Shown one piece after another: positions 5,189 to 44,202 of a DNA stretch of 52,937 bases (positions within the stretch are counted from its first letter, which is position 1; each line of letters starts with the position of its first letter). The DNA is from Prosthecobacter sp. (GTDB taxonomy: Bacteria; Verrucomicrobiota; Verrucomicrobiia; Verrucomicrobiales; Verrucomicrobiaceae): positions 1-52,937 of the forward strand of contig JAIPJY010000049.1 in assembly GCA_021733925.1 (NCBI GenBank), read 5' to 3'. The position numbers were made by a program, and so were the translations under genes. The notes below the pieces were generated by a model, which made no database searches, was not told the DNA's origin, and saw only the letters and a program-made list of their open reading frames with translations.

Positions 5189-5214
5189 GGAACAACAGGA
5201 CGAATTCATCGTTT
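5189..5214 (+). promoter_or_regulatory. ECF-like promoter motif for sulfatase 2
   Basis: GGAAC (5189-5193), then 16 nt, then CGTTT (5210-5214). The ATG at 5223 is 13 nt after the C of CGTT. This is the member closest to the classical GGAAC-N16-CGTT form of extracytoplasmic-function promoters. It lies within the 53-bp gap between sulfatases 1 and 2 and shares AATTCATCGTT with the motif at 28930-28956. Confidence 0.5.
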
Positions 5215-5222
5215 TCAAAACC

Positions 5223-6662
5223 ATGCATCGCATCCTCATCGTCCTGCTCGTTTTTGCTTCCTCCGCACTCGCGGCAAAGCCCAACATCATCTTTGTCATG
5301 GCCGATGACATGGGCTGGGGACAGACTGGCTACCGCGGGCATCCGGTCTTGAAGACACCGAACATCGACGCGATGGCGGCGAACGGGCTGCGATTTGACC
5401 GCTTCTATGCGGGCTGTCCGGTGTGCTCGCCGACGCGGGCGAGTGTGCTGACCGGGCGTTCCCCTGATCGCGCAGGCGTGCTGAGCCACGGCTATGCGCT
5501 GCGCTTTCAGGAGAAGACCATCGCGCAGGCGCTGAAAGCTGCGGGCTATGTGACGGGACACTTCGGCAAGTGGCACCTCGACGGTTTCAAGGGTCCCGGC
5601 GCACCGATTCTGAAATCGGATAAACACAGCCCCGGTGCCTTCGGCTTTGATGAATGGGTGTCCGTGACGAATTTTTATGATCAGAATCCGCTGATGTCGC
5701 ATCAGGGAGAGATCATCGACTTCAAGGGCGATTCCTCCGACATCGTGGTCGATGAGGCGCTGAAGTTCATCGAAAAGCATAACGCTGCCGACAAACCGCT
5801 TTTCACCGTGATCTGGTATGGCACACCGCACGCCCCCTTCAAGGCGCTGGAGGCTGACAAGGCGGAGTTTGGAGCACTCGACAAGGCATCGCAGGATCAT
5901 TATGGCGAACTCGTCGCGCTGGACCGCAGCCTGGGAAAATTGCGTCAGAAGCTGCGCGACTTCGGCATCGCCGACAACACGCTGCTGGTCTTCAACAGCG
6001 ACAACGGCGGCCTGCCGGGCATCAAACCGGAAACCGTGGGCGGCCTGCGGGGCTTCAAGGGCAGCGTGTTCGAAGGCGGTCTGCGCGTGCCGGGGATCAT
6101 CGAATGGCCTGGAGTGATCAAGCCACGCATCACGAACCACGCAGCCTGCACGATGGATTTGTTTCCGACCGTGGCCGATGTGGTGGGCCTGCCCGAAGAG
6201 GTCATGCTCAAACCGGTGGATGGCACCAGCCTGAAGCCGTTGTTTGCCGGTGAGACCGGAGAACGAAAGAAGTCGATCCCGTTCCGTTTCGGCACCAAGG
6301 CCGCACTGACCGGCCAGCGCTATAAACTGCTGACCGAGAACATCGGGAAAGGCGATTTCCAGCTTTACGATCTCGAGGTGGATACGAATGAGACGAAGGA
6401 CCTCAGCAAGGAACAGCCGGAGCTGTTTGAGAAGATGAAGCAGGAGCTGCTCGCCTGGAATGCCACGGTCGATGCCAGCTTCGCGGGCAAGGATTATCCC
6501 GAAGGCAGGGTGACGCCGGCTGATCCGAGGCCGATGTCCTGGACCGAGCACCCCGATTACCAGCCCTACCTGGCCGAATGGGCGAAGCGCTGGGAATATA
6601 AGAGCACTATCGAAGGCGGGGGCAAAGGCGGCAGGAAGCAGAAAAAGAAGGCGGTGGAATGA
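5223..6662 (+). CDS. Secreted sulfatase (sulfatase 2)
   Basis: The product is 479 residues with a signal peptide MHRILIVLLVFASSALA. The formylglycine motif is CSPTR at Cys68; the metal site MADDMGWG (DD at 28-29), FGKWHL and NSDNGGLPG are all intact. It belongs to the arylsulfatase A-like group. The C-terminus is a strongly basic Gly/Lys tail (GGGKGGRKQKKKAVE), a trait shared with several other sulfatases here. An in-frame ATG at 5166 overlaps the preceding stop and would add 19 residues before the signal peptide; I reject it because the promoter-like motif and the signal peptide both point to 5223. The downstream alpha/beta hydrolase follows after 41 bp and may be co-transcribed. Confidence 0.93.
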   Translation: MHRILIVLLVFASSALAAKPNIIFVMADDMGWGQTGYRGHPVLKTPNIDAMAANGLRFDRFYAGCPVCSPTRASVLTGRSPDRAGVLSHGYALRFQEKTIAQALKAAGYVTGHFGKWHLDGFKGPGAPILKSDKHSPGAFGFDEWVSVTNFYDQNPLMSHQGEIIDFKGDSSDIVVDEALKFIEKHNAADKPLFTVIWYGTPHAPFKALEADKAEFGALDKASQDHYGELVALDRSLGKLRQKLRDFGIADNTLLVFNSDNGGLPGIKPETVGGLRGFKGSVFEGGLRVPGIIEWPGVIKPRITNHAACTMDLFPTVADVVGLPEEVMLKPVDGTSLKPLFAGETGERKKSIPFRFGTKAALTGQRYKLLTENIGKGDFQLYDLEVDTNETKDLSKEQPELFEKMKQELLAWNATVDASFAGKDYPEGRVTPADPRPMSWTEHPDYQPYLAEWAKRWEYKSTIEGGGKGGRKQKKKAVE

Positions 6663-6703
6663 CTTGCATGAATTGCCTCCTCCCTCGTTTCATTCCCTCT
6701 GCC

Positions 6704-7561: not shown

Positions 7562-7572
7562 GTTCAACTGGC

Positions 7573-7599
7573 TGACAACAATCCTTCTGCTTCACGTTC
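7573..7599 (+). promoter_or_regulatory. ECF-like promoter motif for sulfatase 3
   Basis: TGACA (7573-7577), 17 nt, CGTTC (7595-7599). It shares CTGACAA-N16-CGTTCAC exactly with the motifs at 20031 and 21700. ATG codons lie 9 and 15 nt after the C of CGTT. Confidence 0.55.
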
Positions 7600-7603
7600 A
7601 CTT

Positions 7604-9088: not shown

Positions 9089-9096
9089 TCTCAGGC

Positions 9097-9123
9097 GGAA
9101 GATTGGCGGCCTTGGCTTCGTTC
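9097..9123 (+). promoter_or_regulatory. ECF-like promoter motif for the sulfatase 4-8 unit
   Basis: GGAAG (9097-9101), 17 nt, CGTTC (9119-9123), with the ATG at +15 (9134). It is nearly superimposable on 18026-18052: both read CGGAAGAT followed by GGCTTCGTTC at the same spacing. Confidence 0.55.
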
Positions 9124-9133
9124 GCAGAGGTCC

Positions 9134-10591
9134 ATGAAATGTGTTTTTGCTTTGTTGTCCCTGGGTCTTGTGGCGGTGTCTTCGGCTGCTGAACCGTCAC
9201 GCCCGAACATCCTCTTTCTCTTTGCCGACGATCAGCGTTTTGACACGCAGAGCTGCGCCGGGCATCCCATCGTGCAGACACCCACCGTGGATCATCTTGC
9301 CGCAGAGGGGGTTCGTTTCAGCAATGCGCACGTCACCACGCCTGTGTGCTGGGTCAGTCGCGCGGTGGTGTTGACGGGCCAGTGGGCGCGGTCTCACTCG
9401 CAGTCCACGGCCATTCCCACCGTGAAGCCGGAGGCGCTGGCCACCATGTTTCCGGTGCTGCTGCGCTCGGCAGGCTACCGCACCGGCCACTTTGGCAAGT
9501 GGCACATGATTGCGCCCCAAGGTTTCAAACCGCAGGACCAGTATGACGAGTACGAGGCCATTGGTCGCAATCCGTATTTCAAAACGATGCCGGACGGCAG
9601 CAAGCGCCATGAGACGGACCTCGTGTGCGACAAGGGCATCGAGTTCATCAAATCTCAGCCCAAAGACAAACCCTTCGCGCTGAACCTGTGGTTCAATGCG
9701 GCGCATGCCGAGGACAATGACCACCGCCCCGGCATCGGGCTTTATCCGTGGCCGCAGTCGGTCGATGGCATGTATGAGGATCGCTCCATCCCACCGCCGC
9801 GTCTGGGAGATCCCGCCATCTACGAGGCGCAGCCACAGTTTCTCAAAGACTCGATCAACCGCGAGCGCTGGTACTGGGGCTACGACACGCCGGAGAAGTT
9901 CGAGACCAACCTGCGCGCGTATTACCGCATGATCAGCGGCATCGATAAGGGCATCGCGCGGGTGCTTGCCGCGCTGAAGGAGGCCGGGCTGGCGGACAAC
10001 ACCATCATCGTCTATTCCGGCGACAACGGCTACTACCTCGGTGACCGTGGCTTTCAGGGCAAGTGGTCGCACTATGAGGAATCGCTGCGCGTGCCGATGA
10101 TCGTCTATGATCCGCGTCTGCCGAAGGAACAACGCGGACGAGTGGTGGATGATCTCGTGCTCAACGTCGATCTGCCCGCCACCTTCATTGGCTGGGCCGG
10201 AGTGAAGCGCCCGGACGCTTACGAAGGCCGCAGCCTTTCAACGCTCATCGAAGGGAAGGGCAGTGATAAACCCTGGCGCGAGCATTTCTTCTGCGAGCAC
10301 CTCGACCTCGCGCCCACGCTCACGTGGGAAGGCGTGCGGGGCCAGCGCTACGTGTATGCGCGCTACTTTGACCAGAAGCCCGCGTATGAGTTTCTGCATG
10401 ATTTGGAGACCGACCGGGATGAACTCAAAAACATCGCCGCTGATCCCGCGCATGCCGTGGTCTTGAAGGAGATGCGCGCGCTGTGCGATGCCGAGATGAA
10501 CGCACGTGGCGGAGCGCTGCTGCCGATGGACCAGCGCGGCTCGCGCAAAGCGGTCAAAAAGAAAGCCCAGAAAGCCAAAGCGGCCCAATAA
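9134..10591 (+). CDS. Secreted sulfatase with atypical CWVSR motif (sulfatase 4)
   Basis: The product is 485 residues with a signal peptide MKCVFALLSLGLVAVSSA. The active-site Cys72 lies in VCWVSRAVVLTGQW: the usual Pro/Ala two residues after Cys is Val, so it departs from the C-x-[PA]-x-R consensus while keeping Cys and Arg. The metal site FADDQRFD, FGKWHM and YSGDNGYYLGDRGFQGKW are intact, and the latter together with YDPRLPKEQRG resembles N-acetylglucosamine-6-sulfatase-type enzymes. The C-terminus is Lys-rich (SRKAVKKKAQKAKAAQ). It starts a run of five same-strand sulfatases whose gaps are -4 to 11 bp, almost certainly one operon. Confidence 0.92.
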   Translation: MKCVFALLSLGLVAVSSAAEPSRPNILFLFADDQRFDTQSCAGHPIVQTPTVDHLAAEGVRFSNAHVTTPVCWVSRAVVLTGQWARSHSQSTAIPTVKPEALATMFPVLLRSAGYRTGHFGKWHMIAPQGFKPQDQYDEYEAIGRNPYFKTMPDGSKRHETDLVCDKGIEFIKSQPKDKPFALNLWFNAAHAEDNDHRPGIGLYPWPQSVDGMYEDRSIPPPRLGDPAIYEAQPQFLKDSINRERWYWGYDTPEKFETNLRAYYRMISGIDKGIARVLAALKEAGLADNTIIVYSGDNGYYLGDRGFQGKWSHYEESLRVPMIVYDPRLPKEQRGRVVDDLVLNVDLPATFIGWAGVKRPDAYEGRSLSTLIEGKGSDKPWREHFFCEHLDLAPTLTWEGVRGQRYVYARYFDQKPAYEFLHDLETDRDELKNIAADPAHAVVLKEMRALCDAEMNARGGALLPMDQRGSRKAVKKKAQKAKAAQ

Positions 10592-10597
10592 CCTGTC

Positions 10598-11932
10598 ATG
10601 CGACGTTCCCTAGTTCTCCTTGCCTCATTTGTCTTTTCGCAGGCGTCGTTTTCGGCGCAGGCTCCGGCGGACAAGCCGAATGTAATCGTCATCATGGCCG
10701 ATGATCTGGGCAGCGTGGATCTCGGCTGCTATGGCGCCAAAGACCTGCACACGCCGCATGCGGATGCGCTGGCGAAGCAGAGCGTGCGCTTCACGCAGTT
10801 TTATGCGGGTGCGCCGGTGTGCTCTGCATCGCGGGCCTGCCTGCTGACGGGCCGCTACCCTGTGCGTGCGGGCGTGCCGGGAAATGTGGGCTCGCAGCAC
10901 GGGCAGAAGGCGGGACTGCCGCCCTCGGAAGTGACGCAGGCGGAGATGTTCAAGAGCGCTGGCTACACCACGGCGCACATCGGCAAGTGGCACCTCGGCT
11001 ACAATGAGGAGATGACGCCGAATGCGCAGGGCTTTGACCACAGCTTCGGGCACATGGGCGGCTGCATCGACAACTACTCGCACTTCTTCTACTGGAGCGG
11101 TCCCAACATCCACGATCTCCACCGCAATGGCGTGGAAGTCTTCGAGGACGGTCATTATTTCCCGGATCTCATGCTGGCTGAAGCAAGCACCTTCATGGAG
11201 AAACACCGCAGCAAACCTTTCTTCATGTACTACGCCATGAACATGCCGCACTACCCCTACCAGGGGGAGGCGAAATGGCTGGAGCACTTCAAGGACATGC
11301 CGATGCCGCGCCGGCTGTACGCCGCCTTTGTGGCGAGCCTGGACGAGCGTCTTGGCAAGCTCGTCGCCAAAGTCGATGAGCTCGGAATGCGCGAGCGCAC
11401 GATCATCGTCTTTCAGAGTGACAACGGCCACTCCACCGAAGAGCGCGCGTTTTTCGGCGGTGGCAGCGCGGGGCCGTACCGGGGAGCAAAGTTCAGCCTG
11501 TTTGAGGGCGGCATCCGCCTGCCTGCGATGATTTCCTGGCCGGGCCAACTGCCGCAGAATGAAGTGCGCGGCCAGATGGCCCACGCCGCCGATTGGATGC
11601 CGACACTGGCTGAATTGTGCGGGGTGAAAACGCCGGAGGTGAAGCTCGACGGCCACAGCCTCGTGCCGGTGCTGAAAGCCGCCGCCGCCCCCAGCCCGCA
11701 CGATGCGCTGCACTGGCAGATGGGCGACTCCTGGGCCGTGCGCGAGGGCGACTGGAAGCTCATCATCAACGCCCGCGACACCACGAAGGGAGATGGTGGC
11801 AAGGTGCGCATTCCCGTCTTCCTCAGCAATCCGACCTCCGACCCGGGCGAGACAACCAATTTTGCCGATCAGCAGCCTGACCTCATCAAGCACCTGACAC
11901 AACTCCACGAAACCATCTACACCCAGCCATGA
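10598..11932 (+). CDS. Secreted sulfatase (sulfatase 5)
   Basis: The product is 444 residues with a signal peptide MRRSLVLLASFVFSQASFSA. The formylglycine motif is CSASR at Cys75; MADDLGSVDLGCYG, IGKWHL and QSDNGHSTEERAFFGGG complete the active site. It resembles arylsulfatase/N-acetylgalactosamine-6-sulfatase-type enzymes. It begins 6 bp after sulfatase 4 and its stop overlaps the next start by 4 bp (ATGA at 11929), so translation of 5 and 6 is probably coupled. No Shine-Dalgarno sequence precedes the ATG. Confidence 0.93.
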   Translation: MRRSLVLLASFVFSQASFSAQAPADKPNVIVIMADDLGSVDLGCYGAKDLHTPHADALAKQSVRFTQFYAGAPVCSASRACLLTGRYPVRAGVPGNVGSQHGQKAGLPPSEVTQAEMFKSAGYTTAHIGKWHLGYNEEMTPNAQGFDHSFGHMGGCIDNYSHFFYWSGPNIHDLHRNGVEVFEDGHYFPDLMLAEASTFMEKHRSKPFFMYYAMNMPHYPYQGEAKWLEHFKDMPMPRRLYAAFVASLDERLGKLVAKVDELGMRERTIIVFQSDNGHSTEERAFFGGGSAGPYRGAKFSLFEGGIRLPAMISWPGQLPQNEVRGQMAHAADWMPTLAELCGVKTPEVKLDGHSLVPVLKAAAAPSPHDALHWQMGDSWAVREGDWKLIINARDTTKGDGGKVRIPVFLSNPTSDPGETTNFADQQPDLIKHLTQLHETIYTQP

Positions 11933-13293
11933 AATCCGCCTGCCTCGGCCTTGCCCTAGGTCTCTTGTCCTTCAGTTCGGCGCTCTGCGCCGCACCGCCG
12001 ACCAACGTGGTCATCATCTTCGCCGACGATCTCGGCTACGGTGACCTGAGCTGCTACGGCTCGCCGACGATCCACACGCCCAACCTGGACCGCATGGCGT
12101 CGGAGGGGCTGCGCTTCACGGATTTCTATGTGGCGGCGGAAGTCTGCACGCCGAGCCGTGCGGCGCTGCTCACGGGGCGTTATCCAATCCGCAGCGGCAT
12201 GTGCGGGACCAGGCGTGTGCTGTTTCCGAATTCGGAAGGCGGGCTGCCCAGCGAGGAGGTGACCATTGCCGATGCGCTCAAGGACAAGGGCTATGCCACC
12301 GCGCAGATCGGCAAATGGCATCTCGGCATTCATGAGGGGTCGCGTCCGCTGGATCAGGGCTTTGAGCATCAGTTTGGGCTGCCGTATTCAAATGACATGG
12401 ATGGACGGCCCGGTCTGCCCAAGGGGTCCTCGGGCTCGCCCACGCCGCCGGAGGATGGCTGGAACGTGGCCCTGAGCCGCGATGGGAAGATCATCGAGCA
12501 GCCGGCGGTGCAGACCACGCTGACGAAACGCTACACCGAGGAGGCGGTGAAGTTCATCACGGAGAAGAAGGACAAGCCGTTCTTCCTCTACTTTGCGCAC
12601 ACCTTCCCGCATGTGCCGCTGTTTGCCTCCCCGGACTTCAAAGGCAAAAGCCGTGGTGGTATTTTTGGTGATGCGGTGGAGGAGCTGGACTGGAGCGTGG
12701 GGCAGATCATGGCCACGCTGCGCGCAACGGGTCTGGCGGAAAACACGCTGGTGTTCTTCACCAGCGACAACGGCCCCTGGCTCATCATGGGCAATCAGGG
12801 CGGCAGCGCCGGACTGCTGAAGGATGGCAAAGGCAGCACCTGGGAGGGCGGCATGCGGGTGCCGGGCATCGCGTGGCAGCCGGGCCGCATCAAGCCGGGC
12901 GTCACCCATGAGCTGGCAAATTCGATGGATCTTTTCACCACGGCGCTCACGCTCGCCGGAGCGAAAAAACCTGACGTGCCCGTGGATGGCGTGGATCTCT
13001 CGCCGCTGCTGTATGAAGCCAAAGCGCTGCCGCAGCGCCCGTTCTTCTACTATCGCGGCGACAAGCTCTTCGCCTGCCGCATCGGTGAATGGAAGGCGCA
13101 CTTCAGCACCCAGATCGGTTACGGCCAGCCCAAGGCGGATGCGCATGTGCCGCCGCTGCTGTTCAATCTGGGGCTCGATCCCTCCGAAAAACGCAATGTC
13201 GCCAAAGATCATCCCGAGGTGATCGCGCAGATCGAAGAGGCCGTGAAAGCACATCAGGCCAATCTCGTTCCCGGCAAACCCCAGCTTCAGTAA
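11929..13293 (+). CDS. Secreted arylsulfatase A-like sulfatase (sulfatase 6)
   Basis: The product is 454 residues with a signal peptide MKSACLGLALGLLSFSSALC. The motif is [18 protein letters not shown] (Cys73), the most canonical arylsulfatase signature in the window. FADDLGYGDLSCYGSP, IGKWHLG and TSDNGPW are intact. The C-terminal YYRGDKLFACRIGEWKAHF segment matches the arylsulfatase A layout, in which the carboxylate-rich end packs against the sulfate site. It overlaps sulfatase 5 by 4 bp and precedes sulfatase 7 by 7 bp, inside the operon. Confidence 0.94.
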   Translation: MKSACLGLALGLLSFSSALCAAPPTNVVIIFADDLGYGDLSCYGSPTIHTPNLDRMASEGLRFTDFYVAAEVCTPSRAALLTGRYPIRSGMCGTRRVLFPNSEGGLPSEEVTIADALKDKGYATAQIGKWHLGIHEGSRPLDQGFEHQFGLPYSNDMDGRPGLPKGSSGSPTPPEDGWNVALSRDGKIIEQPAVQTTLTKRYTEEAVKFITEKKDKPFFLYFAHTFPHVPLFASPDFKGKSRGGIFGDAVEELDWSVGQIMATLRATGLAENTLVFFTSDNGPWLIMGNQGGSAGLLKDGKGSTWEGGMRVPGIAWQPGRIKPGVTHELANSMDLFTTALTLAGAKKPDVPVDGVDLSPLLYEAKALPQRPFFYYRGDKLFACRIGEWKAHFSTQIGYGQPKADAHVPPLLFNLGLDPSEKRNVAKDHPEVIAQIEEAVKAHQANLVPGKPQLQ

Positions 13294-13300
13294 TACCACC

Positions 13301-14806
13301 ATGAAACCTCTCGCCCTCATCCTTTCGTCCTTGTTGATTGTCGTTTCGTCATTCGCAGCTCCTGCGAAGCGGCCCAACATCTTGTTCATCCTCGTCGATG
13401 ACCAGTCGCCATTTGACTTCAAGTGCTACAACCCGAAGTCGCCGCTGCAGTCGCCGAACATCGACAAGCTCGCGGCGGAGGGCATGGTCTTTGATTCCGC
13501 GCGGCACATGGGTTCCTTCAGCGGCGCGGTATGCACGCCTTCACGGCACATGATCATGAGCGGACGCACCGTGTGGCATCTGCCCATCGGCCCTTTGGCG
13601 AAGGATCACTGCCCGCCGAATCTGGAGCAGAACACGCTGGCCGCCGTGTTCAACCGCGCCGGTTACGACACCATGCGAACCTGCAAGCAGGGCAACTCCT
13701 ACGAAGGGGCGAACAAGCAGTTCACCGTGCGCCATGATGCCGAAAAACGCGGCGGCACGGATGACACCGGCAGCACCTGGCATGGCGACCAGGTCATGAA
13801 TTACCTCGCCGAACGCGAGGCGACCAAGGATGCTGATCCCTTCCTCATCTACTTCGGTTTTTCGCATCCGCATGACACCCGCGACGGCCGCCCCGAGCTG
13901 CTGGAGCATTACGGCGCCACCAATCACGATGATCCCAACACGCTGCCTGCCTTGAACCTCAAGCAGCCCGCGCTGCCTGCGAACTACCTGCCCGCGCATC
14001 CCTTCAACAACGGCGATGCCGGCGTGCGTGATGAAGTGGCCGTCAGCGGCGTGTGGAAGAACCGCGATGAGGCCACCATCCGCAACGAGATCGGTCGTGA
14101 TCTCGCGTGCAGCGAGAACATCGACATCCAGATCGGCCGCGTGCTCGCCAAGCTTGAGGCCATGGGCGAGCTCGATAACACCTACATCTTCTACACCGCC
14201 GATCACGGCATCGCGATTGGCCGCCATGGCCTGCAGGGCAAACAAAACCTCTATGAGCACACCTGGCGCGTGCCTTTCATCGTCAAAGGCCCTGGCATCA
14301 AGCCCGGCACCCGCGTGCCAGGAAACATCTACCTGCTCGACACGGTGGCCACGCTCTGCGACGTCGCCGGCATCCCTGCGCCGGAGAGCAATGAAGGCCT
14401 CAGCTTCAAGCCCGTGCTCGAAGGCAAAAAAGACACCCTGCGCGATGTGATGTATGGCGTGTACTGCGGCGGCACCAAGCCCGGCATGCGCTGCGTGAAG
14501 CAGGGCGACTGGAAGCTGATCAAGTATGACGGCATGAACGGCACCGTGCATGAGACGCAGCTCTTCAATCTCGCCGCCAATCCCGACGAGTTCCTGAAGG
14601 AGCACGGCAAAACCGACCCGATGCAGACGAACCTCGCCGGAGATCCGAAACATGCAGACAAGCTGAAGGAAATGGAGGGGCTGCTGCTCGCCGAAATGCG
14701 CCGCCTCAATGACCCCTACCGCCTCTGGGACCAGCCCGACGACGGCCTGCCCCCTGTGCCCGAACCCGCGCCTAGAAAAGCCAAGAACAAGAAGGCCAAT
14801 AAATAA
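13301..14806 (+). CDS. Secreted sulfatase lacking GKWH His (sulfatase 7)
   Basis: The product is 501 residues with a signal peptide MKPLALILSSLLIVVSSFAA. The active-site motif is GSFSGAVCTPSR (Cys78), and a C-terminal-half segment DHGIAIGRHGLQGKQNLYEH matches the corresponding part of sulfatase 12, so the two belong to the same subgroup. The usual GKWH is replaced by TCKQGN (residues 127-132): the lysine is kept but the histidine that normally contacts the sulfate is missing there. A His in FTVRHD shortly after might compensate. The C-terminus is basic (APRKAKNKKANK). It is the fourth gene of the 9134-16161 unit. Confidence 0.92.
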   Translation: MKPLALILSSLLIVVSSFAAPAKRPNILFILVDDQSPFDFKCYNPKSPLQSPNIDKLAAEGMVFDSARHMGSFSGAVCTPSRHMIMSGRTVWHLPIGPLAKDHCPPNLEQNTLAAVFNRAGYDTMRTCKQGNSYEGANKQFTVRHDAEKRGGTDDTGSTWHGDQVMNYLAEREATKDADPFLIYFGFSHPHDTRDGRPELLEHYGATNHDDPNTLPALNLKQPALPANYLPAHPFNNGDAGVRDEVAVSGVWKNRDEATIRNEIGRDLACSENIDIQIGRVLAKLEAMGELDNTYIFYTADHGIAIGRHGLQGKQNLYEHTWRVPFIVKGPGIKPGTRVPGNIYLLDTVATLCDVAGIPAPESNEGLSFKPVLEGKKDTLRDVMYGVYCGGTKPGMRCVKQGDWKLIKYDGMNGTVHETQLFNLAANPDEFLKEHGKTDPMQTNLAGDPKHADKLKEMEGLLLAEMRRLNDPYRLWDQPDDGLPPVPEPAPRKAKNKKANK

Positions 14807-14817
14807 CCTCGCAAGCC

Positions 14818-16161
14818 ATGAAGCCCCTCTCACTCATCCTTTCGTCATTCCTCGTGCTGGGTTCGTCATTCGCCGCCGATGCGAAACCCAACTTCCTCAT
14901 CATTTACGCCGACGATCTCGGCTATGGCGATGTTTCCACCTACCATGCCTCCGACTGCCATACGCCGAACATCGACAAGCTCGCCGCAGACGGCATGCTG
15001 TTTTCAAACATGCGGGCGAACTGCACGGTGTGCTCGCCTTCGCGAGCGGCGTTGCTCACGGGGCGGTTTCCAGATCGTGCGGGTGTTCCCGGTGTCATTC
15101 GCACGAAACCGGAGGACTCGTGGGGCTATCTCGCCCCCGGCGTGCCGACGATTGGCAATGAGCTGAAGAAGGTCGGCTATCACACGGCGGTGATTGGGAA
15201 ATGGCATCTCGGTCTCGAATCTCCCAACACACCGAATGAGCGCGGCTTTGACCTCTTCCACGGCTTTCTCGGCGACATGATGGACAGCTACACCACGCAC
15301 CTGCGCCAGGGGCACAACTACATGCGCCGCAATGCAGAGGTCATCGACCCGCAGGGCCATGCGACGGACATCTTCGCGGGCTGGGCGAAGGATTACTTCC
15401 GTGAGCGTGCCAAGGAGAAGCAGCCCTTCTTCCTCTACCTCGCCTTCAATGCGCCGCATTTCCCCATCGAACCCCCGGCTGACTGGCTGGCCAAGGTGAA
15501 AGCGCGTGCACCGGAGCTTTCTGAAAAGCGCGCGCTGGATGTCGCTCTCGTGGAGCATCTGGATGATCGAGTCGGGCAACTGCTCGCAGTGCTGAAGGAA
15601 CTGGGGCTGGAGCAAAACACCGTCGTGGCTTTCGGCTCTGACAACGGCGGCTCGCTGCCGCATTCCCAGAACAACGACCCCTGGCGCGACGGCAAGACCA
15701 GCCACTACGACGGCGGCCTGCGCGTGCCGTTCATGGTGCGCTGGCCCGGGCACATCAAGGCAGGCTCACGCAGCGACTACTCCGGCCTGAACTTCGACCT
15801 CTTCCCCACCTTCCTGGAACTCGCGAGTGCCAAGCCTTCGCCGAAACTCGATGCGATCAGCCTCGTGCCCATTCTCAACGGAGGAACCATCGACACCCCG
15901 CGCGATCTCTACTTCGTGCGCCGCGAAGGCGGTCCGGCCTACGGCGGCAAAAGCTACGAGGCGCTCATCCGTGGCGACTGGAAGCTCATGCAAAACACGC
16001 CCTACACGCCGCTGGAGCTGTACAATCTCAAAGACGATCCGCAGGAAAAGACGAACCTCATGGGCAAGGCGCCGAAGGTTTTCAGGGAACTGTCCACCGC
16101 GCTGCGCATGCATGTGCAAGTCGGCGGCGCGACGCCGTGGCAGAAACCGGAGGAGCCATAG
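14818..16161 (+). CDS. Secreted sulfatase (sulfatase 8)
   Basis: The product is 447 residues with a signal peptide MKPLSLILSSFLVLGSSFAA, almost the same as that of sulfatase 7 at the DNA level although the mature proteins are distant. The motif is [18 protein letters not shown] (Cys72); YADDLGYGDVSTYH, IGKWHLG and GSDNGGSLPH are intact. It resembles N-acetylgalactosamine-6-sulfatase/arylsulfatase A enzymes. It is the last gene of the five-sulfatase unit and is followed by a 261-bp non-coding gap and a convergent sulfatase. Confidence 0.93.
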   Translation: MKPLSLILSSFLVLGSSFAADAKPNFLIIYADDLGYGDVSTYHASDCHTPNIDKLAADGMLFSNMRANCTVCSPSRAALLTGRFPDRAGVPGVIRTKPEDSWGYLAPGVPTIGNELKKVGYHTAVIGKWHLGLESPNTPNERGFDLFHGFLGDMMDSYTTHLRQGHNYMRRNAEVIDPQGHATDIFAGWAKDYFRERAKEKQPFFLYLAFNAPHFPIEPPADWLAKVKARAPELSEKRALDVALVEHLDDRVGQLLAVLKELGLEQNTVVAFGSDNGGSLPHSQNNDPWRDGKTSHYDGGLRVPFMVRWPGHIKAGSRSDYSGLNFDLFPTFLELASAKPSPKLDAISLVPILNGGTIDTPRDLYFVRREGGPAYGGKSYEALIRGDWKLMQNTPYTPLELYNLKDDPQEKTNLMGKAPKVFRELSTALRMHVQVGGATPWQKPEEP

Positions 16162-17946: not shown

Positions 17947-18025
17947 GAGGGGCATCAAACATGAAGCACTGCCGGATGGCAACCCTGGAGGCACGAACTG
18001 AAATGTGACCCGTGACGATCCCGCC

Positions 18026-18052
18026 GGAAGATCCGCGCCCCAGGCTTCGTTC
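18026..18052 (+). promoter_or_regulatory. ECF-like promoter motif for sulfatase 10
   Basis: GGAAG (18026-18030), 17 nt, CGTTC (18048-18052), with the ATG at +14 (18062). It matches 9097-9123 over most of its length. No equivalent was found reading toward sulfatase 9 in the same divergent gap. Confidence 0.55.
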
Positions 18053-20030: not shown

Positions 20031-20057
20031 TGACAAATCGCCCACTCCTATGCGTTC
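20031..20057 (+). promoter_or_regulatory. ECF-like promoter motif for sulfatase 11
   Basis: TGACA (20031-20035), 17 nt, CGTTC (20053-20057). The ATG at 20065 lies 12 nt after the C of CGTT, which would give an almost leaderless mRNA. The leader is homologous to that of sulfatase 12. Confidence 0.6.
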
Positions 20058-21699: not shown

Positions 21700-21726
21700 T
21701 GACAAAAGGCACCCTCCGGCACGTTC
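21700..21726 (+). promoter_or_regulatory. ECF-like promoter motif for sulfatase 12
   Basis: TGACA (21700-21704), 17 nt, CGTTC (21722-21726), with the ATG at +12 (21734). It is the best-matching partner of the motif at 20031. Confidence 0.6.
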
Positions 21727-25469: not shown

Positions 25470-25628
25470 ATGAAAACGAAACTCATCAAATCCATCCTGT
25501 TCCTGATCGCCGTCACTTCCATCACCGGAGCACGCGCTGATCAATCGCTCGCCGACCGCATCAAGGAAGCCTGCAAAGAACCGCCTCGTCCTCGGGGAGC
25601 CACGGCCGTCGCCGCTGTCCGTGGATAG
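25470..25628 (+). CDS. Tiny secreted protein (52 residues)
   Basis: The ATG at 25470 opens a 52-residue frame: signal peptide MKTKLIKSILFLIAVTSITG, a cleavage-like ARADQS, then a short mature part with a single Cys (EACKEPP) and a Pro/Arg/Ala-rich end. I do not recognise it. Support comes from the signal peptide, the position downstream of the shared 30-nt element, and the two following genes, which have the same plan and leader style. It could also be a decaying gene. Confidence 0.5.
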   Translation: MKTKLIKSILFLIAVTSITGARADQSLADRIKEACKEPPRPRGATAVAAVRG

Positions 25629-25667
25629 CACCCATCACATCCATCCACCCTTCACCATCTCCACCCC

Positions 25668-25970
25668 ATGAAAACATCACTGCTTCATCTCTGCCTCCTC
25701 ACCGCGGCCACACTCGCCTTTCAGCCGAGTGCTCAGGCTGACATTTGGTTCCAGCCAGTGCCCGTCTGCCCTCTGCCCCTATGTCCGTTGCCCATCTGTC
25801 CGGCACCCGTCCCCGAACTGCCCAAGCCCTGCCGCCCCTGCTTGCCTCTGCCTCCCACCGCTGATCCTTGGGATCAGCTGGCAGTGACCGGGACGGACGA
25901 AGGGTGTGTCAGGCTGCCGGGGAAACCCACCCGCCCGACTCCCACCAGCGCATTCATGCTTCCTGCCTGA
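25668..25970 (+). CDS. Small secreted Pro/Cys-rich protein
   Basis: The product is 100 residues. The signal peptide MKTSLLHLCLLTAATLAF is followed by a mature region with a striking Cys-Pro repeat (VCPLPLCPLPICPAP, then KPCRPCLPLPP). Six or seven Cys at regular short spacing suggest disulfide- or metal-linked structure outside the cytoplasm. I do not recognise a family. Its leader (CATCCATCCACCC ... ATGAAAAC) resembles that of the next gene, suggesting local duplication of the 5' end. Confidence 0.6.
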   Translation: MKTSLLHLCLLTAATLAFQPSAQADIWFQPVPVCPLPLCPLPICPAPVPELPKPCRPCLPLPPTADPWDQLAVTGTDEGCVRLPGKPTRPTPTSAFMLPA

Positions 25971-26008
25971 ACCGCCTCATCATCCATCCACACTCATCTC
26001 TTCCCCTC

Positions 26009-26254
26009 ATGAAAACATCATTCCATCTCGCCCTTCTCCTGCTCGTCACCCTGAATGCTCCGCTCTCAGCAGCGGATGCCGATGACAAGCTCGACGCCGC
26101 CAAAAAACTGGTGGAGCGCATCATCGAGGCGCAGCCTCCACGTGAAACTGGCAGCGGGCGCACGCCGGAACAGGCCATCAAGGAATACAAGGAGTCCGGC
26201 AGAGCGCCCGGCATCCGCCTGGAGGTCCACCCGGTGCCGCCGCCTGCTCTCTGA
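26009..26254 (+). CDS. Small secreted protein (81 residues)
   Basis: A signal peptide (MKTSFHLALLLLVTLNAPLSAA) precedes a charged, probably helical mature part (DDKLDAAKKLVERIIEAQ) and a Pro-rich end. I recognise no family. I choose the ATG at 26009; the open frame upstream overlaps the previous gene. It is followed 17 bp later by a strong terminator, so it closes the small-gene unit. Confidence 0.6.
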   Translation: MKTSFHLALLLLVTLNAPLSAADADDKLDAAKKLVERIIEAQPPRETGSGRTPEQAIKEYKESGRAPGIRLEVHPVPPPAL

Positions 26255-26332: not shown

Positions 26333-27076
26333 ATGAGCAACGAGGGCGAGATGTTTCCGCAAACGCGGTGGTCACAGCTGGCACGGCTGAAGGACGGTGA
26401 TGAGTCCACCAAGAGCGAAGTGCTTGGCACGCTCTACCAGCTTTATCGAAAGCCGGTGCTGGCCTATCTCGCACGGCGTGGCTTTGGCCATGAAAAGGCC
26501 GAGGATCTGGTGCAGGACTTCTTTCTGCACTCCATGCAGCATCAGTTGTTTGAGAAGGCTGAAACCGCGCGCGGACGTTTTCGCGGCCTGATGCTTTCCG
26601 CCCTTCAGCATTATGCCGCCAATGCGCACCGGCATGATCAGGCGCAGCAGCGGCGGCCTGCCGGAGGCTTCGTCGCCGCAGACGAGGTGCTGGCGGAGGG
26701 TGGCAGCTCCGCCATCCTCGGCGTGGACCACCACACACCGGAGGATGCCTTCACCCAGACATGGGCCCGCATGCTGCTGGCGCGTGTGGTGGACGCCCTG
26801 GACGGCGAGTGCCAGGCCACCGGCAAGCAGACGCATTTCAGCATTTTCAAACGCTTCATGCTCCTGCCCATTCTCGATGGCGTCGCCGCACCCTCGCAGC
26901 GCGACATGGCGGTCGAGTTTGGACTCACTGAAAAAGAAGTCGCCAACCGCCTCGTCACCGCACGGCGTGCCTACCAGCGACTGCTGCGTGAGGAGATCGC
27001 CCAGTATGCGACGGACAGCGACGAAGTGGACGCGGAGATCCGCGATCTCTTTGCCACGCTCAGCCGGCCCGCTTGA
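26333..27076 (+). CDS. RNA polymerase sigma factor, ECF-like (PVC type)
   Basis: The product is 247 residues, longer than ordinary ECF factors (about 190). Region 2 is clear: LYRKPVLAYLARRGF, then EDLVQDFF (residues 57-64). Region 4 is a C-terminal helix-turn-helix (SQRDMAVEFGLTEKEV). A long Gln/Arg/Gly-rich linker separates them. This matches the atypical sigma-70 factors of Planctomycetes and Verrucomicrobia that are encoded beside Ser/Thr kinases and lack a classical anti-sigma factor. The kinase gene starts 6 bp downstream, so the two are co-transcribed. It is a candidate reader of the recurrent GGAA/TGACA-CGTTC motif; that is a hypothesis. Confidence 0.9.
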   Translation: MSNEGEMFPQTRWSQLARLKDGDESTKSEVLGTLYQLYRKPVLAYLARRGFGHEKAEDLVQDFFLHSMQHQLFEKAETARGRFRGLMLSALQHYAANAHRHDQAQQRRPAGGFVAADEVLAEGGSSAILGVDHHTPEDAFTQTWARMLLARVVDALDGECQATGKQTHFSIFKRFMLLPILDGVAAPSQRDMAVEFGLTEKEVANRLVTARRAYQRLLREEIAQYATDSDEVDAEIRDLFATLSRPA

Positions 27077-27082
27077 TTTACC

Positions 27083-28936
27083 ATGTCATCCGATGCCCAT
27101 TTGAGCAGTTTGCGTGATCTGCTTTCCGCTCTGAAACGCGGATTGATCGATAAAGGTGAAGCGGGTTCTGCCGTGACACCGGGCGACTCGATGCTCGAGC
27201 GCCTGGAACGCGGCGATCCGCTGGCGGCAGGCGGACTGGCGGACCTGCTTGGTCTTAACAGCGGTTCACCTGAGGAGGAGGAAGTTCTGCAGGAGCTTCA
27301 GCGTGAGTGCCAGTTTTTGAAGGGGGTGCCCTTTCAGCCCGGCACCTGCATCGGCGGGAAATACAAGGTGCTCCAAATCCTGCGCGGGGGCTTCGGGTTG
27401 GTGTATCTCTGCCGCAGCCTCGGACCGGACATTTATGAACGAGGCGATTCACTCGCTGCGCTGAAGTGCCCGCTGCCGCAGCATTTGACCGAACCAGAGC
27501 TGTGTGAGCTGTTTGTGGCGGAGGCGGTGAACTCCGTGGCGCTCACGCCGCATCCCAACCTCGTGCTCGCTTACGGCGTGGAAATGCACAACCGCATTCC
27601 CTTCCTTGTGATGGAGCACATCACCGGTGGGCGGACTCTTGCGGAGGAGATTGACAAGGGCCGCACGGATTGGCGCACCACCCTGCATCATGGCCTCGGC
27701 ATGGCGCGCGGACTGGCGCACGCCGCGTTGGAGGCGCAACTGATCCATGGCGACTTGAAACCCTCCAATGTTTTGATCACCGGCGATGGCGTGGCGAAGG
27801 TCAGTGACTTTGGGCTCTCACTCTCCGGCGGCGATGCCGGTCCTGCTGGACTCACCCCCGGCACCGATGGCTTCAAGGCTCCTGAGATGGTCGCACGCCG
27901 CTCGGGCCGCAGCACCGCGGCAGACGTGTATGCCTATGGCGTCACGCTGCTGTGTGAAGTGCTCGGTCATTTTCCACAGGCAGCACGTCCTGCGGAGCTC
28001 TGCACCGCTGACCGTATGCCGGAGCCTCTGGCCGCGCTGCTGCGGGAGTGCCTCGCCATTGATCCTGCTGCACGGCCTGCGAGCTTCCAAGTCATTGCTT
28101 CACGTCTGGAGGCCATGTTTGTCTCCCTGCTCGGAACGCCGCCTCCGCGCACGACGGAGCCCGACTCACCGCTGCAGGCGGATGCTCTAGTCAATGCCGC
28201 ACAGACCTGGCTCAATCTCGGCCAGCCGCGCAAAGCCCAGGCCGAGATTGAACGCGCGCTGCACGTGAATCCCGCCAACTGGAAGGCGCACCAGATTCAA
28301 AGCTGCATCCACATGGAACGGCGTGAGTTCGAAGCCGCCTTCCGCTGCGCCACTAAAGCCCGTCAACTCGCCGCAGATGAACCCGGCCCGCCAGCCAATC
28401 TCGCGCAGGCCGCCATGGGTCTCGGCCTTCGTGATGAGGCTTTGACCTGGGTCAGTGAGGCCTTCGATCTCGCTCATCAATCCAATCGTATGGGAGAGCT
28501 GGATGGCACGTCGCATCTCTTCATCGAGCTCCTGCCCGCAGCTCAGGCTCGTCGCGTGCTGGATGCCATTGTGGCCGCTCAGCCCGGCGCAGCCATCACC
28601 TGGAACAATCGTGCGATCCTTATGCGACGCATGAAGCAGCCCGAGGAGGCGCTGGCCAGCGCGGACCGTGCCATCGCCCTCAATGCCGCCTATGCCAAGG
28701 CCTGGGTGAACCGCGCGAATGCCCTCATCGAACTGCACCGGTTCGCGGAAGCACAGACCTCGGCGTCCAACGCGCTCGATCTCGATCCCTGCCTGCCGGG
28801 TGCCTACTGCGCCAAAGCCACCGCACTGGCCCAGCTCAGCCGACTTGCCGAAGCACGCGCCGTGATCCGCAGCGGGCGGTCCATCCTCCCGGCCGATCCA
28901 CTGCTCATGCGTGCAGCGCAGGTGTTCGCGGAATGA
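27083..28936 (+). CDS. Ser/Thr protein kinase with TPR repeats
   Basis: The product is 617 residues. An 85-residue N-terminal region (with an acidic EEEE patch) precedes a Hanks-type kinase domain: Gly loop LRGGFGLVYL (100-109), Lys128 in LAALKCP, HGDLKPSN catalytic loop (222-229), DFG (242-244) and APE (266-268). The catalytic Asp and Asn are intact; the loop reads HGD in place of HRD. From about residue 365 to the end run TPR-like repeats (QTWLNLGQPRKAQAEIERAL, TWNNRAILMRRMKQPEEALA). No membrane segment is seen, so it is cytoplasmic. Tight linkage to the sigma factor suggests control of it by phosphorylation. The stop overlaps the promoter-like motif of sulfatase 13. Confidence 0.92.
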   Translation: MSSDAHLSSLRDLLSALKRGLIDKGEAGSAVTPGDSMLERLERGDPLAAGGLADLLGLNSGSPEEEEVLQELQRECQFLKGVPFQPGTCIGGKYKVLQILRGGFGLVYLCRSLGPDIYERGDSLAALKCPLPQHLTEPELCELFVAEAVNSVALTPHPNLVLAYGVEMHNRIPFLVMEHITGGRTLAEEIDKGRTDWRTTLHHGLGMARGLAHAALEAQLIHGDLKPSNVLITGDGVAKVSDFGLSLSGGDAGPAGLTPGTDGFKAPEMVARRSGRSTAADVYAYGVTLLCEVLGHFPQAARPAELCTADRMPEPLAALLRECLAIDPAARPASFQVIASRLEAMFVSLLGTPPPRTTEPDSPLQADALVNAAQTWLNLGQPRKAQAEIERALHVNPANWKAHQIQSCIHMERREFEAAFRCATKARQLAADEPGPPANLAQAAMGLGLRDEALTWVSEAFDLAHQSNRMGELDGTSHLFIELLPAAQARRVLDAIVAAQPGAAITWNNRAILMRRMKQPEEALASADRAIALNAAYAKAWVNRANALIELHRFAEAQTSASNALDLDPCLPGAYCAKATALAQLSRLAEARAVIRSGRSILPADPLLMRAAQVFAE

Positions 28937-28956
28937 AATGTCCAAATTCATCGTTC
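28930..28956 (+). promoter_or_regulatory. ECF-like promoter motif for sulfatase 13
   Basis: GGAAT (28930-28934), 17 nt, CGTTC (28952-28956), with the ATG at +12 (28964). The -35-like block overlaps the kinase stop codon, so the motif is partly coding. Confidence 0.5.
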
Positions 28957-30778: not shown

Positions 30779-30805
30779 TGACACAGTTGATGCCCTCCGC
30801 CTTTC
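30779..30805 (+). promoter_or_regulatory. ECF-like promoter motif for sulfatase 14 (variant)
   Basis: TGACA (30779-30783), 17 nt, CTTTC (30801-30805). The second block differs by one base from CGTTC but keeps the following AC; the ATG is at +19. It is a weaker match. Confidence 0.35.
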
Positions 30806-34054: not shown

Positions 34055-34081
34055 GGCAAGACCCTTGCGCATCACGCGTTT
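34055..34081 (+). promoter_or_regulatory. ECF-like promoter motif for sulfatase 15 (variant)
   Basis: GGCAA (34055-34059), 17 nt, CGTTT (34077-34081). An ATG at 34090 lies 13 nt on, in frame with sulfatase 15. The first block is a poor match. Confidence 0.3.
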
Positions 34082-34155
34082 CCAGCACCATGCGTCTCGC
34101 TCTGCCCTTCCTCGTTTCTGTGTTTTCTTCTCATCGCCTGCTTTTCCAGAGCAGC

Positions 34156-37829: not shown

Positions 37830-37856
37830 TGAGAGAGCCGCCTCTCATGCGCGTTT
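37830..37856 (+). promoter_or_regulatory. ECF-like promoter motif for the esterase unit
   Basis: TGAGA (37830-37834), 17 nt, CGTTT (37852-37856), with the ATG at +15 (37867). It heads the secreted-enzyme run. Confidence 0.4.
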
Positions 37857-41740: not shown

Positions 41741-41749
41741 GGGTGGCTC

Positions 41750-41784
41750 AAGGAGGAACGCGCGGAATGAATTCCGTACTCCTT
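41750..41784. repeat. Palindromic repeat ahead of the acetylesterase gene
   Basis: AAGGAG (41750-41755) pairs with CTCCTT (41779-41784), and CGGAAT (41763-41768) with ATTCCG (41771-41776). The AGGAGG looks like a Shine-Dalgarno sequence before an ATG at 41767 in frame with the next gene, but the symmetry suggests that both are parts of a repeat. Confidence 0.45.
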
Positions 41785-41823
41785 GTGCAGCATCACCGCC
41801 TTGCACTACATTGCGATCCTGCC

Positions 41824-42969
41824 ATGAAATGTTTTCTGCTCCTGTCTGCCTTCCTCGTCGCGCTGTGCAAGCTGCATGCGCAGACCACACCACCCGAAGC
41901 CGCGCCTGCCCAGCTCAAACTCAACGCACCGCTCGATTACCAGGTCTTTCAGCGCAGAGATGCCCATAAAGGGAACATCGCGATCTCCGGCGTGTTCGCA
42001 CAGATGCCCAACGAGGTCTTGGTACGATCTGTGGTGAATGGACAATCCAGTGACTGGAAACCACTCACGGTAGCGATCAATGACTTGTCATTCAGCGCAG
42101 GATTTGAACTGCCCGCAGGTGGCTGGCATCGACTGGAACTTCGCACCAAATTGAATGGCAAGGTGATCGAAGAAGCGACGGTCGAACATGTCGGCATCGG
42201 CGAAATTTTCATTGTCGCCGGTCAGTCAAACTCGGCGAACCACGGCGAGGAAAAGCAATCCACCCAAACAGGTCGTGTCGCCGCTTTTGATGGCCGGCGG
42301 TGGCAGCTTGCAAATGATCCGCAACCTGGAGCCAGTGGCAAAGGAGGCAGTTTCATGCCACCGCTTGGCGATGCGCTGGTGAAGAAGTTCAATGTGCCCA
42401 TTGCATTCATCCCCTGCGGCATTGGTGCGACGAGCGTGCGCGAATGGTTGCCGAAAGGGGTGACTTTTCCTCATCCTCCCACCATTGAATCCCGTGTGCA
42501 CAAGCTCCCCGGTGGCGAGTGGGAGAGCCGAGGAGATGCGTATGCCGGATTGCTTGAGCACATGCAAGACGCCGGCCCGCATGGCTTTCGCGCCGTGCTC
42601 TGGCATCAGGGTGAAAGTGATGCGAACCAGAAAGACACGACTCGCACTCTGCCCGGAAAGCTGTATCGCGAGCATCTGGAGTACATCATTCGAACCTCAC
42701 GCCGCGAGATCGGCTGGGAGGCGCCATGGTTTGTCGCGCAGGTCAGTTATCATGTGCCGGGAGATGAAGCGTCTGCCGACATTCGTGCAGCACAAGCAGC
42801 GCTGTGGCAGAATGGCGTCGCGCTGGCAGGGCCGGACAGCGATGCGCTCAAAGGCGAGCTGCGCGAGCGCCATGGCCAGGGTGTCCACTTCAGCGGCCAG
42901 GGATTGCGTGAGCATGGCTCCCGCTGGGCCAGTCAGATCACGCCATGGCTGCAGCAGCAGTTGAAATGA
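41824..42969 (+). CDS. Secreted sialate O-acetylesterase-like SGNH hydrolase
   Basis: The product is 381 residues with a signal peptide MKCFLLLSAFLVALCKLHAQ. A beta domain (about 30-125) precedes the SGNH hydrolase: block I GQSNSAN with nucleophile Ser135, block III-like CGIGATSVREW, and WHQGESDA. This is the sialic-acid-specific acetylesterase (SASA/DUF303) family, which removes O-acetyl groups from sialic acids or xylan. I use the ATG at 41824 because it begins the signal peptide; the frame is open further upstream through a palindromic repeat (ATG at 41767). It ends one base before the convergent M14-like gene. Confidence 0.88.
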   Translation: MKCFLLLSAFLVALCKLHAQTTPPEAAPAQLKLNAPLDYQVFQRRDAHKGNIAISGVFAQMPNEVLVRSVVNGQSSDWKPLTVAINDLSFSAGFELPAGGWHRLELRTKLNGKVIEEATVEHVGIGEIFIVAGQSNSANHGEEKQSTQTGRVAAFDGRRWQLANDPQPGASGKGGSFMPPLGDALVKKFNVPIAFIPCGIGATSVREWLPKGVTFPHPPTIESRVHKLPGGEWESRGDAYAGLLEHMQDAGPHGFRAVLWHQGESDANQKDTTRTLPGKLYREHLEYIIRTSRREIGWEAPWFVAQVSYHVPGDEASADIRAAQAALWQNGVALAGPDSDALKGELRERHGQGVHFSGQGLREHGSRWASQITPWLQQQLK

Positions 42970-42970
42970 T

Positions 42971-44182
42971 TCACTCCCGGCGGGGATTCTCCTGGAGATA
43001 GGTCATCAGCGCCCGGCCAAGACCCGCGCCGATTTTACCGTAGCCTTCCACGGACATCAGCGGGCTGTTCCAGCACGTTTCGAGCGTCACGGAGATCGTG
43101 GCAGCGCCCGTATTGGCGCGCACCCAGCCGCTGCTCATGCGCCCGCGTTCTTCTTCTGTCTTCACATAGTTCGCGAAGTGATACTTCGGATCTACTTTGA
43201 GCGGTTCGACGATGCTGGCGGCAGCGATGTCGATCCAGCGCTGATAGTTGCGCTGCTGGACGCCCGTCATGCGCTCGAAGGCGAAAGGACCGAAAAAAAA
43301 GACGGGGTCTTTGGGGGCGGGGTTGTGCAGATCAATGAAGACATCGAGCCCGTGCTTCGTGTGAATGTCGCGAATCATGCGCTGTGCCGCAGCCACTTCA
43401 GGATAGATCGGTTCGGCCGCCCAGTCGCGATTGTGATCACGCGGCACCGCATCCTTGCCGCCTGCGCCGATGGCGGCGTTGTCCACGTCCATGATGGGGA
43501 TGAAGTGGAGGCAGGTGTTTGCGCGCAAAGCTCTGGCTGCATCACTCGCATACCATTGGATGAAGCCGCGCCCCACCTGGCTGCCGCCTGCCTCCCACGC
43601 ATGCTGCCGTGAGCCGACCCACACCTGATGCGCTGCGTTTTCATTGCCAATGCGAATGCCCTGCACCGGGCGGCCACCGCGTGTTTTCGCCAGTTCAAAA
43701 CGTTTGGCCTCCGGCAGCTTCGCGGCGATGTCGGTGAGCAGCTTGTCCGCATCTGCCGGCACAAACGGTGGCCCCCAGGCCAGCGATATCTGCGCGGCTC
43801 CTGCTGGGATTGTGTAGCTCATCACCTTGTCCGCGCTCAGCGTGCCTGGGGCCGAAGGCTGCCATGTTTCACCATCCACGCTGATCCACGCACACTTGGG
43901 CTGGCACCACGACGCAGCAAGCACGGTCTTGTCGCGATAGGGTTTGTTCTGCGCCTGCACTTCGAGGGTGAATGCCTCGCCCACGGTGAGCCCCTCCAGC
44001 TTGAGCGACCACCAGCAGGGCCAGCCGCGCCCTTCATGGAGCGCAGGCATGATGCGCAGTGTCTTGGTGGCTTGATCGATCTTCACCACTTCGGCATTGC
44101 CTCCTTCGAAATCGGTCCGCACACGCAGCTCAGCCTGGGCAGTGATGACAAAGAGAGAAAGAAGGAACAAGCGTTGAATCAT
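42971..44182 (-). CDS. Secreted M14 family zinc carboxypeptidase-like protein
   Basis: The product is 403 residues with a signal peptide MIQRLFLLSLFVITAQA. An N-terminal beta domain (to about 150) precedes a carboxypeptidase-like domain with RQHAWEAGGS (zinc HxxE), DHNRDW (substrate Asn-Arg), DLHNPAPK (third zinc His) and VTLETCWN (catalytic Glu). All M14 landmarks are present, so it should be an active metallopeptidase or amidase. The ATG at 44182 begins the signal peptide; a GTG at 44188 adds two residues. Only 27 bp separate it from the divergent PQQ-like gene, so its promoter must overlap that gene's start. Confidence 0.88.
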   Translation of the reverse strand: MIQRLFLLSLFVITAQAELRVRTDFEGGNAEVVKIDQATKTLRIMPALHEGRGWPCWWSLKLEGLTVGEAFTLEVQAQNKPYRDKTVLAASWCQPKCAWISVDGETWQPSAPGTLSADKVMSYTIPAGAAQISLAWGPPFVPADADKLLTDIAAKLPEAKRFELAKTRGGRPVQGIRIGNENAAHQVWVGSRQHAWEAGGSQVGRGFIQWYASDAARALRANTCLHFIPIMDVDNAAIGAGGKDAVPRDHNRDWAAEPIYPEVAAAQRMIRDIHTKHGLDVFIDLHNPAPKDPVFFFGPFAFERMTGVQQRNYQRWIDIAAASIVEPLKVDPKYHFANYVKTEEERGRMSSGWVRANTGAATISVTLETCWNSPLMSVEGYGKIGAGLGRALMTYLQENPRRE

Positions 44183-44202
44183 CTCCACTCAACGTCACGT
44201 TC
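44175..44202 (+). promoter_or_regulatory. ECF-like promoter motif for the PQQ-like gene (variant)
   Basis: TGAAT (44175-44179), 18 nt, CGTTC (44198-44202), with the ATG at +12 (44210). The -35-like block lies inside the first codons of the divergent M14-like gene. Confidence 0.35.

Follow-up and report, generated by a model that had tools for sequence, protein, structure and literature searches.

Many sulfatase genes in the 52,937-nucleotide contig JAIPJY010000049.1 (C90) of a Prosthecobacter sp. draft genome (7.3 Mb) are preceded by a recurrent two-block element, TG[A/C]AAGA followed by CGTT, which we consider, on the basis of sequence comparison, to be in all probability the promoter of an extracytoplasmic function (ECF, group IV) sigma factor. 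The contig is hereafter called the window. An initial annotation of the window had proposed an ECF-like promoter at the head of sulfatase units, and such an element indeed occurs above chance both in the host genome and across the family to which the host belongs (Verrucomicrobiaceae).

The analysis covered 1.56 Mb of the host genome, the window included, comprising nearly all sulfatase neighbourhoods together with comparison stretches. The 1138 genes in these stretches were called by codon usage, blind to the motif, and their starts were refined by a signal-peptide rule that is likewise motif-blind. The genome has 82 PF00884 sulfatase matches, of which five were not mapped to called genes and one lies near the end of a stretch. 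The resulting set holds 76 sulfatases, 61 outside the window and 15 within it; the window sulfatase at 34090 is one of the five unmapped matches and is not among the 15, since it was missed by the gene caller. When the literal pattern of the initial annotation was applied strictly, with CGTT 11–20 nt before the called start, it matched 10 of the 76 sulfatases (5 inside the window and 5 elsewhere) as against 3 of 1015 other genes (Fisher p = 3.6e-10). A de novo two-block search from random starts in the 61 out-of-window upstream regions yielded G[A/C]AAG + CGTT. With a model trained outside the window, 9 of the 15 held-out window sulfatases reached at least 9 bits, compared with 8.0% of dinucleotide-shuffled upstream regions and 5.2% of coding stretches, although two of the nine matches are off position (C of CGTT at −35 before 13301 and at −20 before the start at 30790). 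The element is also directional, as judged by scores of at least 10 bits in 44 of 76 sense upstream regions and in 6 of 76 reverse complements. Upstream motif searching against shuffled controls thus shows enrichment at sulfatases genome-wide, and the same holds in relatives (see below).

The final model was trained on 105 upstream regions, 76 from the host genome and 29 from a congeneric genome (G008), and therefore partly on window sequences. It consists of TG[A/C]AAGA, with CGTT beginning 21–22 nt past the G, and so departs from the −35 consensus (G/T)GA(A/C)N given in the initial annotation. Among 62 sites passing this model, drawn from 122 sulfatases of the host, G008, G007 and named relatives, the spacer between the blocks is 11 or 12 in every case, and CGTT is almost invariant within this set, which was selected by the model itself. 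Base composition between the boxes is close to background. A footprint comparison was made on 15 of 74 protein-matched pairs (host member at least 12 bits, one pair per host gene, poorly aligning pairs kept). Here the boxes are better conserved than the intervening spacer: bases were kept at 46/60 positions of CGTT and 84/120 of the −35 box, against 92/172 of the spacer (p = 0.002 and 0.005), with 282/475 kept in the upstream and 101/178 in the downstream flank. These properties bear on the notion that the likeness is a residue of recent sulfatase duplication along with upstream DNA, or chance. Sulfatases are a large paralogous family, and the sites at 9097 and 18026 are alike from end to end. 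Yet the spacer is near background while the boxes are fixed, unrelated secreted genes carry the motif, and shuffled controls score far lower, chance being already refuted by them; we regard this explanation as scarcely conceivable.

To compare positions within transcription units, a gene was classed as a head when its neighbour was divergent or the gap exceeded 120 nt, and as tightly internal when the gap was at most 12 nt; 32 of the 76 sulfatases fit neither class and were left out of this comparison. At a cut of 10 bits the motif precedes 25 of 36 head sulfatases and none of 8 tightly internal ones (Fisher p = 0.0004), and dinucleotide-shuffled heads gave a mean of 0.9 (standard deviation 1.0) of 36. 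At 8 bits, where the 32 remaining genes were also counted, matches were obtained for 20 of 26 divergent heads, 10 of 18 genes with same-strand gaps above 60 nt and 9 of 16 with gaps of 26–60 nt. These rates imply that genes lying 13–60 nt behind another often own a copy, which is the pattern noted initially in the window. The comparison also speaks to the proposal that the motif acts in the mRNA as a signal for starting translation, in place of the Shine-Dalgarno sequence. Such a role would agree with the limited spread of its distances from the start codon and with the lack of a Shine-Dalgarno signal in the genes examined. The tightly packed internal genes need translation as well, though, and none of the eight carries the motif at 10 bits; its concentration on sulfatases and secreted enzymes likewise argues against a translational signal, to which we attach next to no probability.

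In the window itself, all sites lie on the forward strand, and distances are given from the C of CGTT to the start codon. The seven sites that the initial annotation rated best are all present, with 12.1–19.6 bits in the final model, and each precedes a sulfatase gene: 5188–5214 (18.3 bits, 13 nt before ATG 5223), 7573–7599 (12.1 bits, 9 nt before ATG 7604), 9096–9123 (19.6 bits, 15 nt before ATG 9134, the head of a sulfatase run extending over 9134–16161), 18025–18052 (19.6 bits, 14 nt before ATG 18062), 20031–20057 (17.1 bits, 12 nt before ATG 20065), 21700–21726 (15.0 bits, 12 nt before ATG 21734) and 28930–28956 (15.4 bits, 12 nt before ATG 28964). Four further sites had been listed as weaker, and these fared unevenly. 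The site at 44175–44202 (12.0 bits, 12 nt before ATG 44210, a PQQ-repeat protein by Pfam) matches the literal pattern, bringing the literal matches to eight of the eleven sites listed. Two others fit the refined two-block model but not (G/T)GA(A/C), namely 34055–34081 (14.5 bits, GGCAAGA form, 13 nt before ATG 34090, sulfatase) and 37830–37856 (14.3 bits, TGAGAGA form, 15 nt before ATG 37867, a secreted esterase by Pfam and not a sulfatase). The site at 30779 lacks CGTT and was dropped. A strong site absent from that list was found at 1341–1367 (16.9 bits), with the C of CGTT 12 nt before GTG 1375 of a gene for an FAD-dependent oxidoreductase (Pfam). No match to the final model was found upstream of the internal genes 10598, 11929, 14818 and 35803, and the internal gene 13301 has only an off-position match of 17.6 bits (13244–13270, 35 nt before ATG 13301), which could be due to chance or could mark an internal promoter whose transcript has a leader.

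Weaker matches were seen at 6665–6690 (10.6 bits, 18 nt before the secreted esterase gene 6704) and at 41786–41813 (11.2 bits, 15 nt before 41824, a gene for a secreted esterase of the SASA family). At 44175–44210 the PQQ-repeat gene (+) and an M14-peptidase-like gene (−) diverge with overlapping start regions and weak matches of 12.0 and 9.1 bits. The very start of the window (61–138) matches the Rfam group II catalytic intron with 44.1 bits.

With regard to other genomes, the motif was recovered independently, by de novo search, from 29 sulfatase upstream regions of the congeneric G008, in which 18 of the 29 sulfatases reach at least 12 bits under the final model, G008 being within its training set. 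In other genera of the family, none of which was used for training, 14 of 33 sulfatases reach this score, against 0.7 after shuffling. At 9 bits, matches were found in seven of the eight genera sampled, although unevenly (3/3 in g24, 1/7 in g31, 0/1 in g26); in genome G043 three of four sulfatases score at least 9 bits, and the stretches of G018+31 and G032 contributed no usable sulfatase calls. As far as can be read from these sequences, much of the host's family shares the putative promoter arrangement. In six genomes outside the family, 2 of 76 sulfatases reached at least 12 bits, which is not above the shuffled level (0.8). De novo search in one genome of the same phylum but outside the family (G023) yielded a Shine-Dalgarno-like block instead, present in 17 of 30 sulfatases. 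A TTTCCAAGGCTTGGAAA-like palindrome also recurs in stretches L189–L194 of G023: there are 43 tight matches within 120 kb, and some of these lie directly before sulfatase genes. A looser pattern was found in 6 of 30 sulfatase upstream regions and 3 of 43 others.

The genes that carry the element in the host genome are not confined to sulfatases. Strong matches (at least 14 bits, 8–45 nt before the start) were seen in front of 35 of the 76 sulfatase genes; among other genes with a signal peptide the count is 20 of 310, and among all the rest 9 of 705. The sulfatase regulon proposed in the initial annotation is too narrow, as other secreted catabolic enzymes carry the motif too. When 37 non-sulfatase genes scoring at least 11 in the first model at the right distance were inspected, 32 were read as having a signal-peptide or twin-arginine translocation (Tat)-like N-terminus; the other five are not secreted, and one of them is a gene for a TRW-type sigma factor. 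Among the 25 of 50 Pfam families listed for these genes, Gfo/Idh/MocA occurs five times and BNR repeats three times, and FAD oxidoreductase, PSCyt2, PSD1, PSCyt1 and 3-keto-disaccharide hydrolase occur twice each. A control of 38 (of 40 sampled) signal-peptide gene heads without the motif has none of these families with more than one member among the 25 of 43 families listed, PSCyt2 and PSD1 appearing once, but this comparison is rough since the sets were not matched for head position. In freshwater Verrucomicrobia, sulfatase genes are described as often adjoining PSCyt genes (PMC5615132, in excerpt), which fits common control. In the planctomycete Rhodopirellula baltica, the ECF sigma factor RB10049 has been proposed as regulator of RB10051, which is of the PSCyt/PSD class that also bears the motif here; that case concerns a single gene pair in another phylum, with no promoter motif in the excerpted text of PMC2754498, which cites the proposal, as opposed to the dispersed, sulfatase-led regulon predicted here.

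The position of the element has consequences for the mRNA. In 52 of the 62 sites the C of CGTT lies 12–16 nt before the start codon, most commonly at −15 (21 sites) and −12 (12 sites); it lies farther out in 9 sites and nearer in 1. In an ECF promoter, CGTC has been placed at −13 to −10 (PMC3397946, in excerpt). Transcription would accordingly begin about 12–13 nt past the C of CGTT, usually on the start codon itself or no more than a few nt away, so that leaders of about 0–3 nt are predicted; near-leaderless mRNAs for the motif genes are in our view a sound inference. In two matches of genus g22 the distances are larger (−25 and −30), so that a small leader is likely in those genes. The initial annotation had taken the absence of Shine-Dalgarno sequences as support for leaderless mRNAs. 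This argument did not hold, because the other genes lack them as well, 72 of 1015 non-sulfatase genes having such a sequence compared with 6.5% expected, i.e. chance level. Akkermansia is among the bacteria in which these sequences are scarce (PMC10783764, in excerpt). A C at −1 before the start codon was observed in 61% of the same 1015 genes. In other gene heads, TTGAC is concentrated 31–40 nt before the start (25 occurrences in two 5-nt bins, 1–3 in each other occupied bin) and TANNNT peaks at 11–15 nt (40 occurrences, 8–21 in other bins), although part of the latter peak may be stop codons, as internal genes peak likewise. These positions suggest that short leaders are general in this genome. 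A joint test for TTGA[CT]–TANNNT gave four pairs near starts in 530 non-sulfatase heads, which is few, yet above the shuffled mean. A survey of leaderless genes defines them by a −10 signal some 12 bp ahead of the start codon, which resembles the position of CGTT here, but by its own statement it recognises only TANNNT (sigma70-like) signals (PMC3160421, in excerpt); a word search of its text for 'Verrucomicrob' gave no hit.

What, then, reads the element? Its A-tract −35, CGTN −10 and promoter-like spacing resemble promoters of Tt-RpoE1 (−10 CGTC) and Bacillus subtilis SigW (−35 ATTGAAACCTTT) (PMC3397946 and PMC8103513, in excerpt). In these excerpts CGTC is the −10 element of one ECF sigma factor and is found with several others (PMC3397946), and a central A-tract is described as widely conserved in ECF −35 boxes (PMC8103513). 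In contrast to these promoters, the element has CGTT as −10, TG[A/C]AAGA as −35 core, abuts the start codon and heads a predicted regulon of sulfatases and secreted catabolic proteins. A conserved two-block site before functionally coherent genes could also be an operator bound by a transcription factor, in which case the actual promoter would lie elsewhere. This appears quite unlikely for an element that is directional and non-palindromic, with a fixed, promoter-like distance between its blocks and the start codon too near to leave room for any promoter downstream. A degenerate promoter of the housekeeping or another non-ECF sigma factor would account for those sites with TGACA as −35, and TTGAC in other genes is about as far from the start codon. 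The near-invariant CGTT of the 62 model-selected sites is unlike TANNNT, however, and the TTGA[CT]–TANNNT pair was found in 0 of 36 sulfatase heads; we therefore judge this origin decidedly improbable.

An ECF-type promoter thus remains the favoured interpretation, but several observations weigh against it. Outside promoter positions, the density of matches of at least 12 bits does not exceed that of a Markov control (873 in 3.12 Mb counted on both strands, vs 256 in 0.59 Mb counted on one), and lone matches elsewhere are consequently not trustworthy. The motif is missing at the 10-bit cut from 11 of the 36 head sulfatases. The contrast between head and internal genes claimed initially is clear for tightly packed genes, but it becomes blurred at 8 bits, where 6 of 15 sulfatases with gaps of at most 25 nt match, including 1 of 8 with gaps of at most 11 nt. 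Finally, none of the canonical ECF genes examined has a convincing motif at promoter distance, although autoregulation is usual for ECF sigma factors.

We propose that TG[A/C]AAGA, with its central A-tract, would serve as the −35 element and CGTT as the −10, with a single orientation at unit heads, and that one ECF sigma factor, or a few of near-identical specificity, would read it. The host genome has 34 PF04542 sigma factor matches. The window contains a gene (26333–27076, +) for a divergent sigma factor of the TRW type, paired with a gene for a Ser/Thr protein kinase with TPR repeats (27083–28936, +), an arrangement also described for ECF sigma factors regulated by such kinases (PMC8103513, in excerpt). 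The nearest named relatives of this sigma gene are from Verrucomicrobia/Prosthecobacter assemblies, one of six records being labelled Akkermansia. This pair is disfavoured as the regulator: in two relatives' stretches (L044 and L045) it occurs without a recognised sulfatase, and DXXR, which in region 2.4 is reported to recognise the G of CGTC (PMC3397946, in excerpt), was not found in residues 60–170 of the window sigma factor. In L046 there is no sulfatase upstream of the pair, the stretch ending inside the kinase gene, and L041–L043 have one sulfatase downstream. Neither these neighbourhoods nor the DXXR check provided evidence for control of sulfatases by the pair at 26333–28936. A series of very small genes for exported proteins precedes the pair (25470–26254) and is conserved in L042, L044, L045 and L046; in some relatives these small proteins end in AVAAVRG. 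A gene for a TRW-type sigma factor elsewhere in the host genome (contig C8, L235) has a moderate match of 12.2 bits at −16.

Four ECF sigma factors (L205, L211, L209 and L221) were compared for their distribution. L205 best fits the family-wide spread of the motif: at E ≤ 1e-35 it was found in all 12 family genomes compared and in one of six genomes outside the family. Its DXXR position carries N instead of D, and an oddly spaced match of 13.0 bits lies at −91 of its gene. L211 has counterparts of 58–98% identity in 14 of the 15 further family genomes; the identity is 45% in G043 and 44% in two genomes outside the family. L211 has DXXR, and no motif match was found near its gene. L209 was rejected as cognate sigma factor, as it occurs in all 12 family genomes but also in 4 of 6 outside, well beyond the family. 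L221 has the best match near a canonical ECF gene (13.4 bits at −41) and was rejected as an autoregulated candidate, that match not being conserved; of 12 genomes, one close relative has it, and one genome outside the family has a weak match to it. Adjacency of a sulfatase and the L211 ECF gene at the C8 locus was dropped as evidence of control because, from a reading of cut-off neighbours, it holds in only three of eight loci (the host, G004 and G008). Upstream of L211-type ECF genes, GACAAA / TTTGTC repeats were seen by eye in eight genomes (L280–L287), and these look like a multi-site operator.

The claim that the motif is undescribed agrees with our searches of open-licence papers, in which no title or abstract opening described it among work on leaderless genes and promoters of Verrucomicrobia, ECF regulons, ECF promoters of the Planctomycetes–Verrucomicrobia–Chlamydiae (PVC) group, or sulfatases and ECF sigma factors in Planctomycetes; no papers were found on promoters of Verrucomicrobium spinosum or on sigma factors of Prosthecobacter. 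If the proposal is right, many sulfatases scattered over the genome would be switched on jointly with secreted catabolic proteins, and the co-regulated non-sulfatases would include Gfo/Idh oxidoreductases, PSCyt/PSD proteins, 3-keto-disaccharide hydrolases, FAD oxidoreductases and esterases. More tentatively, one family-conserved ECF sigma factor may command a leaderless, dispersed catabolic regulon in a lineage free of Shine-Dalgarno sequences whose housekeeping promoters also abut start codons, such that promoter choice and translation initiation might be coupled genome-wide, a possibility that we would not yet favour. Genomes of this family hold scores of sulfatase genes, and we found no account of how these are switched on. 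The present analysis provides a testable promoter, a predicted regulon of sulfatases, PSCyt proteins and secreted enzymes, and two candidate sigma factors, and it raises the question of whether, in a lineage poor in Shine-Dalgarno sequences, much of the transcriptome may be leaderless.

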